A stretch of DNA of 64,000 nt from an uncultured Opitutia bacterium (GTDB lineage Bacteria > Verrucomicrobiota > Verrucomicrobiia > Opitutales > Opitutaceae), in the NCBI GenBank assembly GCA_903834135.1, contig CAILHZ010000016.1, positions 335,001 to 399,000 on the forward strand. Direction: 5' to 3'. Of this stretch, positions 48,061 through 49,828 are shown piece by piece; the first letter of the stretch is position 1, and the number at the start of each line of letters is the position of its first letter. A program made the translations under genes and the position numbers. The notes beneath the pieces were generated by a model, which ran no database searches, was not told the origin of the DNA, and saw only the letters and a program-made list of their open reading frames with translations.

Positions 48061-49404
48061 CTAACGGCGCTTATCGGTCAGCGGGAGCATCACTCCTCTT
48101 CTGAAAAGCGTTACCTGTCCGGTACTTGAGGAAACAACAATAGATATACAGTCCGAGGTAACACTAATTGCGGCAGCAGCAGCATGGCGGCTACCAAGAC
48201 CACTCGGTAGGTTATGATCGCTATCCGTTGCCTGGATCAAGCTTCCTGCGGATTCAACAACTCCGTCCCCCCGAATAATAAAGGCTCCATCGATCGATGA
48301 AAATTCCTTAACTGTCTCATCCATGAACGGGTTAAGTATGTTTCTATCTTCTTCTTTATAACCGTAGAACGGGTTTAAAACCAGCGGTTTAGTGAATTGC
48401 GCTACTTTACTTGTATCGCCTACTACAAATAAACAACCCACAGGGCGGCCCTCCCTACCCTCAACGGCTAGTTCTGTAGCTACAGCGATTACACGCTCAA
48501 GGACCTCAGGGGTAACATCCGATGGAAGTAAATCTGAAGTAGACCCAGTTATAAGGGTTTGAAATTCACGTTCTATATCAACGACCACCAAGGTATCGAA
48601 CTGATTGCTCCCAGTGATTCCGCCCACGCAACACACGCGATCTTTAAACGCGATAATGCCACGAGTAAGTGCAACCAATATAGCACTTCTAAGCTGTGCT
48701 AAACGTTGACTTGAAAAAGATCTAACTTGGATAGTTTCAGAAAAATGAGCCTCTCCTTCAGATGCTTCAATGGGAGTTCTAGTAACTAAGATCATTTTCA
48801 GTTTCGACTTCATTGAACCAGGTTCAATACCGCCAACAAAGGTATCCCCAAACACCATGATTGCTTTGCAGGCTGCGCCACGTGCCACACTTTCTGCCTC
48901 TCGAAACATTAAGCGATTAATACGACTTTGCTGAGCCTGCACAGGACGCAGTCCACCAAAACCGCTGACCAATCGTTCAAATAAAATATCTAGATCAGAT
49001 GCATTAACGAGCCCATCTAGGAGTTCCGGTTCTTTGACTTGTCTAGCAATAGCAGCAAGGACCTGTAAGTAATCGCGCGCTTTTTCATCAGCGATTAACA
49101 TAAACACAAGCCGTATTGGCTCGTCTGAAATTGACCCATCGTGACGAATACCTACACGACTACGGCCAACCGCTAAAATATAGCGCCTAGGCATTTTAAT
49201 TCGTATGTGCGGTAATGCCACCCCATGACCCAAGTAGGTTGTCATGGTGCTCTCTCGCACCAATAAACCCTTAAGTAGCGTCTCTTGTTTAAGATCCGGA
49301 AACTTAGAAACAACAACGCCTGCAAGCTCATCTAAAGCTGCTTCCAATTCCACACTTCTTAAATCAACCACTCGGGTCCTCGCGATGACTTTATCGAGCC
49401 TCAT
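48061..49404 (-). CDS. PTS EIIA-type domain fused to a diadenylate cyclase (DAC/DisA_N) domain
   Basis: Probable c-di-AMP synthase under control of a phosphotransfer-like domain. Residues about 1-145 are an EIIA-Fru/Ntr-like domain with the active-site histidine His66 in GHGVALPHIRI. A middle domain (about 155-290) has no clear family. The C-terminal DAC domain has the motif DGA at 372-374 (SIDGAFII) and, where RHR is expected, SRHA (residues 405-408). The acidic SEETG motif is replaced by SSSTG. 447 residues. Whether the enzyme is active is uncertain. Downstream of nuoA (46 bases) on the same strand. Confidence 0.78.
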   Translation of the reverse strand: MRLDKVIARTRVVDLRSVELEAALDELAGVVVSKFPDLKQETLLKGLLVRESTMTTYLGHGVALPHIRIKMPRRYILAVGRSRVGIRHDGSISDEPIRLVFMLIADEKARDYLQVLAAIARQVKEPELLDGLVNASDLDILFERLVSGFGGLRPVQAQQSRINRLMFREAESVARGAACKAIMVFGDTFVGGIEPGSMKSKLKMILVTRTPIEASEGEAHFSETIQVRSFSSQRLAQLRSAILVALTRGIIAFKDRVCCVGGITGSNQFDTLVVVDIEREFQTLITGSTSDLLPSDVTPEVLERVIAVATELAVEGREGRPVGCLFVVGDTSKVAQFTKPLVLNPFYGYKEEDRNILNPFMDETVKEFSSIDGAFIIRGDGVVESAGSLIQATDSDHNLPSGLGSRHAAAAAISVTSDCISIVVSSSTGQVTLFRRGVMLPLTDKRR

Positions 49405-49450: not shown

Positions 49451-49828
49451 TTACTTCTCCCACTCTAGAGCACCCTTCTTAACCTCATAAAAAAGGCCAA
49501 GTACAAGAACTCCAAAAAAGAAAAGAATAGGACCTAGAATTGCAACGTGATGAGCGAGAAAATCGCGGTAGATAAAACTCCAAGGCAGGAGAATAACGAT
49601 TTCTAAATCGAACAGCATAAAAAGTAACGCTGTAACGAAAAATTTAACTGAAAACCGGGAATGGATCATACCATCTCCAGGAGAGCCGCATTCATATGCG
49701 GTATCCATGATTTTGGAATGCTTGCCTCGTTGGCCCATCAAATGACTGACGAGCACAATCGCGCATGCAATCGATCCTGCAAGAATCGCTTGGATAAGAA
49801 ACGGGAAATAAACACTATTAACAGTCAT
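49451..49828 (-). CDS. nuoA: NADH-quinone oxidoreductase subunit A
   Basis: Membrane subunit of respiratory complex I (NDH-1). 125 residues with three transmembrane segments; the family motif YECGSPGDGMIHSRFSVKFF sits in the loop after the first span, and FDLEIVILLPW in the second. No other nuo gene lies in this window, so it is an orphan here. ATG start at 49826-49828, no Shine-Dalgarno sequence. Confidence 0.93.
   Translation of the reverse strand: MTVNSVYFPFLIQAILAGSIACAIVLVSHLMGQRGKHSKIMDTAYECGSPGDGMIHSRFSVKFFVTALLFMLFDLEIVILLPWSFIYRDFLAHHVAILGPILFFFGVLVLGLFYEVKKGALEWEK

Follow-up and report, generated by a model that had tools for sequence, protein, structure and literature searches.

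A putative DacZ-class diadenylate cyclase fused to a phosphotransferase EIIA domain in Opitutales

Introduction

The stretch of DNA analysed here (the window, 64,000 nucleotides from an uncultured Opitutia bacterium) encodes a protein in which an EIIA-type domain of the phosphotransferase system (PTS) is joined to a diadenylate cyclase (DAC) domain, and it raises the question of whether this protein makes c-di-AMP and, if it does, whether phosphotransfer controls how much. The control of diadenylate cyclases is described as poorly understood (PMC8573169). PTS proteins of the EIIANtr type and c-di-AMP are separately known as controllers of K+ homeostasis, and the two would here be brought together in one protein. 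In a search of the open-licence literature, none of the titles and abstracts listed concerned such a fusion; 'All DACs in a Row', a review of DAC domain architecture, may list it.

Domain organization of the protein

The reading frame of 447 residues at 48061-49404 is on the minus strand, and frame 1 of the plus strand over the same interval contains many stops. A domain search confirms the original prediction that an EIIA-type domain is fused to a DAC domain, both lying above their Pfam cut-offs (Table 1), and the residues that it named (His66, D372-G373-A374, R406-H407-A408 and S425-S-S-T-G429) are all correct. The middle portion, to which it could give no family, turns out to be DacZ_P, a curated Pfam domain named after DacZ and the highest-scoring of the three in the protein. 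DacZ_P shows weak similarity to pyruvate-kinase profiles (E 0.004-0.005), with PK_C reaching 10.7 bits against a cut-off of 28.

Among the best 80 of 181 confirmed homologues, each at a distinct locus in another genome, alignments extend over residues 1 to 445-447 with 71-81% identity in the best segment, and because of these near-full-length matches the three-domain reading frame is not a product of chance or of assembly. The named records of these 80 closest relatives are mostly metagenome-assembled genomes of Opitutaceae or Opitutae (Verrucomicrobiota). Over 80 homologues, mean identity to the window protein is highest in the DAC domain (88%), intermediate in DacZ_P (74%) and lowest in EIIA (69%), and the strong conservation of DAC speaks for an active cyclase.

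Table 1. Features of the fusion gene and its upstream neighbour, with positions in the window.
Feature	Position	Strand	Evidence
EIIA-DacZ_P-DAC protein, 447 aa, putative DacZ-class diadenylate cyclase	48061..49404	-	ORF and Pfam
PTS_EIIA_2 domain, residues 21-143	48976..49344	-	Pfam PF00359, 63.3 bits, cut-off 27, E 3.1e-17
DacZ_P, probable sensor domain, residues 162-283	48556..48921	-	Pfam PF21755, 102.4 bits, cut-off 27.4, E 1.8e-29
DAC catalytic domain, residues 313-438	48091..48468	-	Pfam PF02457, 77.5 bits, cut-off 27, E 7.9e-22
His66, expected phospho-acceptor	49207..49209	-	His in 143/147 homologues, window protein included
Tyr112, place of the second EIIA His	49069..49071	-	Alignment to PtsN, at the H of AHLEIL
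DGA motif, residues 372-374	48283..48291	-	D and G in 152/152 homologues, A in 147/152
RHA, residues 406-408, RHR equivalent	48181..48189	-	R and H in 152/152 homologues
SSSTG, residues 425-429, SEETG equivalent	48118..48132	-	S425 in 152/152 homologues
nuoA (NADH dehydrogenase chain 3), directly upstream of the cyclase gene	49451..49828	-	PF00507

Relationship to known diadenylate cyclases

The best NCBIfam model for the protein is DacZ (NF041371), at 120.6 bits and below the equivalog cut-off of 430. Membership of the CdaA class was considered and rejected (TIGR00159, 36.6 bits against a cut-off of 188.8, with RHA in place of RHR), as was membership of the DisA class (PRK13482, 18.3 bits against 201). 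In an unrooted tree of 42 DAC-domain sequences (LG+G4), the CdaA group is set apart by a long branch with 100% support; the haloarchaeal DacZ proteins adjoin a bacterial DacZ_P protein that has no EIIA domain (70%), and the CdaA branch attaches beside another EIIA-less DacZ_P protein (85%). Many of the inner nodes are weak, so that the tree gives the split from CdaA and not the order of events within the DacZ side. Judged from its sequence, the DAC domain of the window protein is thus on the DacZ side and not with CdaA, and bacterial proteins within the DacZ branch have already been noted (PMC6741144). The catalytic part belongs to this known class.

Comparison with individual enzymes shows how the parts are shared. 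The haloarchaeal DacZ proteins, typified by that of Haloferax volcanii (Pfam DACZ_N and DAC, NF041371), likewise have DGA and an RH without the third arginine, as read in two Haladaptatus DacZ proteins, and in those two there is also an N-terminal sensor-like domain, but it is DACZ_N in place of DacZ_P and there is no EIIA. In H. volcanii, DacZ is reported to be the sole DAC and to be active with manganese only (PMC6741144), and the presence of c-di-AMP has been confirmed (PMC8646023). CdaZ/DacY of Methanocaldococcus jannaschii (PK_C and DAC), which we liken by its published description, has a pyruvate-kinase-C-like N-terminal domain and proven activity (PMC6741144); PF21755 was below its cut-off in M. 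jannaschii in one search and gave no match in another. CdaA/DacA, the common bacterial cyclase, shares the DAC domain, the DG motif and often a PgpH in the same genome, but differs in falling into the separate group of the tree and in its motifs, with RHR in all 12 and SEETG in 11 of the 12 Verrucomicrobiota CdaA-type proteins read (from 14 matches).

Catalytic motifs of the DAC domain

The original prediction took the altered motifs as a sign that activity may have been lost, and comparison with homologues does not support this. Two alignments were used: one of close homologues, with 98 distinct sequences including the window protein (one of them gapped at the motif columns), and a wider one of 153 distinct sequences that reaches other classes of the phylum (152 ungapped). 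RHA is present in all 97 of the close homologues and Ser426 in 94, the window protein included. In the wider set, the third position of the RHR equivalent is A in 141, T in four, S in three, and V, N, I and L in one each, and not one of the 152 has an arginine there. At position 426 the residue is S in 128 of the 152, A in nine, E in eight, G in five, and T and Q in one each; the eight with glutamate are five EIIA-DacZ proteins from outside the class, two DacZ_P proteins without EIIA, and the protein of one small genome of the relatives (G042, discussed below). These phylum relatives with the SEETG glutamate likewise lack the third arginine. Two plasmid-borne Haladaptatus DacZ proteins, both above the NCBI equivalog cut-off for DacZ, have RHH and SES at these sites, with the glutamate present.

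RHA and SSSTG are therefore altered with respect to CdaA and DisA, but RHA is ordinary within the protein's own DacZ branch. The loss of the SEETG glutamate, which is near-universal in the Opitutales sequences, is a real and the one remaining clade-specific oddity. A damaged enzyme was considered and rejected, the state of the motifs being fixed family-wide, and the absence of RHR gives no ground for calling enzymes of the DacZ branch dead. Whether RHA-like motifs are usual in homologues with proven activity can be answered in part: DacZ of Haloferax is reported to be active (PMC6741144), and the proteins in which RHH was read are the two from Haladaptatus. In the mechanism that we propose, the active site would use D372 and G373 together with R406 and H407 to make c-di-AMP from two molecules of ATP, the third arginine of the bacterial RHR would not be part of the DacZ active site, and DacZ_P would be an integral domain for sensing or dimerisation.

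The EIIA domain and the phosphotransferase system

Alongside the expected phospho-acceptor His66, the residues R50 (144 of 147 homologues), E51 (145 of 147) and R68 (144 of 147) are strongly conserved. Residue 112, where the second histidine of EIIA would be expected, is tyrosine in 135 of 148 homologues and histidine in one. The host genome has a single EI gene with a TSH motif and a single HPr gene with a GIHARP motif, motifs that hold the active histidines; EI was found in 52 and HPr in 55 of 57 genomes. A second EIIA protein is also encoded in the host genome (contig C18, locus L175, 1727-2527; 267 aa, with a VPH motif), directly behind a P-type cation ATPase gene, and could be the main target of HPr.

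In sugar systems the second EIIA histidine takes part in transfer to EIIB (PMC13104625), and a tyrosine in its place is fitting for a terminal regulatory acceptor. PtsN (EIIANtr) resembles the window domain in belonging to the EIIA_2 family, in its active histidine and in its regulatory role, with K+ proteins and SpoT as targets (PMC13104625, PMC4848567), but it stands alone, whereas the window EIIA is fused to a cyclase and scores 37.1 against the PtsN equivalog cut-off of 138.7. In Caulobacter, phosphorylated EIIANtr is reported to act on SpoT, a (p)ppGpp enzyme, and to raise (p)ppGpp (PMC4848567); in Escherichia coli, unphosphorylated PtsN is reported to bind TrkA, YcgO and KdpD (PMC13104625).

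Because an EIIA domain with a phosphorylatable histidine is fused to a DAC domain, and EI and HPr are both encoded in the genome, phosphotransfer control of the cyclase, as originally predicted, is plausible. Phosphate would pass from PEP to EI, to HPr and then to His66 of the EIIA domain as the last acceptor, where it would stay and not be passed on, the second histidine being replaced by tyrosine; the phosphorylation state of EIIA would then set the activity of the cyclase. We infer that such control is probable, although the natural variants of the fusion give it no support. In G195, G221 and G349, which belong to a single genus and are 97-98% complete, His66 is replaced by serine, serine and cysteine, respectively, yet DAC, PgpH and EI are kept; a fourth genome (G039) has tyrosine at this position even though EI and HPr are present. 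Phosphorylation is thus dispensable in some lineages, since in all four His66 has been lost and the DAC domain kept. Conversely, in G042 (0.9 Mb, 93% complete) no EI or HPr was detected and His66 is kept, the opposite of what a pure relay would predict unless the assembly misses EI and HPr. Loss of the histidine is accordingly not linked to loss of EI: EI persists in the His-less genus, and the histidine persists in G042, where EI was not detected. In the three genomes of the His-less genus (loci L140, L141 and L142) the EIIA domain is decaying, with much of its signature gone, and DAC is well kept; the EIIA Pfam score is below the cut-off in L140 and L142.

These same genomes suit a different reading, in which the protein is an active c-di-AMP synthase whose EIIA domain works without phosphorylation, either as an interaction or oligomerisation module or through PtsN-like binding to HPr or to a protein of K+ transport: the DAC domain stays where His66 is lost, G042 retains the domain with no EI or HPr detected, and PtsN is described as working through partner binding (PMC13104625). 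Set against this is the retention of H66, R50, E51 and R68 in 143-145 of 147 homologues, even though EIIA is the least conserved of the three domains, and we regard a phosphorylation-free role as unlikely, if deserving of serious consideration.

A putative sole cyclase with a phosphodiesterase, and riboswitches in relatives

The DAC domain of the window protein is the only one found in its genome (94% complete). Within the set of 57 genomes (the host and 56 relatives) a DAC match is present in 50, and in every one of these a single match passes the cut-off. A further match in G035 falls below it, and in G003 the DAC gene is cut by a contig end. The check for EI, HPr and a c-di-AMP phosphodiesterase that accompanied the original prediction finds all three in the host genome, the last being a PgpH with 7TMR-HDED, 7TM and HD domains, and PgpH (PF07698) is likewise present in 50 of the 57. 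DAC and PgpH occur together in 42 of the 46 near-complete genomes; DAC is missing in G003 (the contig end), G053 and G054, and PgpH in G033, G053 and G054, so that two genomes have neither. Co-occurrence among these 46 gives a one-sided Fisher p of 0.009, or 0.003 if G003 is counted as having DAC, uncorrected for kinship. Further genomes picked by hand include two without either gene (G343 and G423), one with PgpH and without DAC (G192), and two with a CdaA-type DAC and without PF07698 (G090 and G111).

A match to the c-di-AMP riboswitch RF00379 is present in nine of the 57 genomes, and in eight of the nine the sole DAC is this one; no DAC match was found in the ninth, G052, which is 50% complete. 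With the stricter filters used, the riboswitch had no match in the host genome, which is one of 48 without it. One of the eight, G033, has DAC and the riboswitch without PF07698. The gene that follows the riboswitch encodes a KimA-type K+ transporter in G011, G012, G028, G033 and G036 and Kup in G015; one of the five KimA-type proteins matches KimA in the PDB (6.4e-61), and the other four are 63-77% identical to that one. NCBIfam gave no name to any of the seven riboswitch-controlled genes submitted. In G013 (L185) and G026 (L187) the riboswitch is followed by Band_7/SPFH genes, which are not K+ transporters, and in G052 by a gene to which no family could be assigned. A read-out of c-di-AMP that controls K+ import requires a synthase, and in the riboswitch genomes this DAC is the only candidate found.

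Loss of catalytic activity is unlikely, because the motifs are normal for the branch, the DAC is the sole one in the genome, PgpH is kept, and eight relatives with this sole DAC have riboswitches. The original prediction allowed that the DAC domain had lost activity and become a nucleotide sensor, and the missing third arginine of RHR and glutamate of SEETG would agree with a catalytically dead domain that senses ATP or c-di-AMP, as would reports that changing RHR to AAA abolishes the activity of Mycobacterium tuberculosis DacA/DisA and Mycobacterium bovis CdaM (PMC3328451, PMC13022847). However, those mutants, as described, lost R, H and R at once and so say nothing about the third arginine alone, whereas the window family keeps R and H invariantly; archaeal DacZ and the glutamate-bearing relatives in the phylum also lack that arginine; and a dead domain would be the sole DAC of genomes that keep PgpH and, in eight cases, c-di-AMP riboswitches. 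We consider such a sensor highly improbable. The gene most likely encodes the only c-di-AMP-making enzyme of the cell, an enzyme of a type most familiar from archaea. We hold it to be a reasonably well-founded reading overall that the protein is an active DacZ-class cyclase, the sole such enzyme of its host, tuned by EIIA phosphorylation, where the activity, the phosphorylation of His66 and the direction of its effect are what we infer from the evidence above.

Distribution, origin and gene neighbours

DacZ_P was found in 67 of 387 genomes of the phylum, the host included; 59 of these are in the same order and eight are outside the class. Five of the eight have the EIIA part (G089, G205, G293, G422 and G363; by Pfam in three and by alignment in the others), and none is seen in G162, G390 or G291, the last of which is at a contig end. 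DAC was examined in seven of the eight, all of which have an additional one of the CdaA type (five read, two assigned by score and length). In the other orders of the class, seven hand-picked genomes from five families have one DAC each, of the CdaA type. Within the order, G218 is an exception in having a second DacZ_P-DAC protein, without EIIA. The simplest reading is that the DacZ fusion displaced CdaA in Opitutales.

A broader proposal can be offered more tentatively, and we would not put it beyond an open possibility: most of a bacterial order may have swapped CdaA for an archaeal-type DacZ wired to the PTS phosphorelay, with phospho-His66 setting the output of c-di-AMP and PEP or carbon status thereby acting on K+ uptake. 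A single polypeptide would then join carbon status to c-di-AMP-controlled K+ uptake, and if so it would be, to our knowledge, the first phosphohistidine-controlled diadenylate cyclase. Such a link from carbon to potassium is directly testable with three proteins, namely EI, HPr and EIIA-DacZ.

Four of the genomes outside the class belong to one family (f43). G205 (L145) has an EI gene convergent with the fusion gene and, two genes upstream of the fusion, an EIIA gene with a C4 zinc ribbon; in G293 (L147) a similar EIIA gene, assigned by resemblance, is also two genes upstream. No EI or EIIA gene was seen near the fusion in G089 or G422. A reversed flow of information, in which the nucleotide state of DAC and DacZ_P alters the draw of EIIA on HPr phosphate and so informs the PTS of ATP or c-di-AMP, could draw on the kept EIIA active site and on such neighbours in G205 and G293, two of four f43 genomes viewed, but it is very doubtful given that the tyrosine in place of the second histidine makes phosphate transfer to a permease unlikely, that lineages without His66 retain DAC, and that the other two f43 genomes have no such neighbours.

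A tblastn match to nuoA is found upstream and on the same strand at 147 of 165 loci (some genomes counted twice), with gaps of 9-227 bases; 14 loci have no such match despite at least 500 bases of sequence, and the other four are too short. The nuoA and cyclase genes could possibly be on one transcript, and in the window a short terminator-like hairpin lies between them. The window nuoA has as its neighbours the cyclase gene and an open reading frame of 366 aa with weak similarity to DUF362. Directly downstream of the cyclase gene, also on the minus strand, is the gene for ribosomal protein L33 (47811-47972; 54 aa, PF00471).
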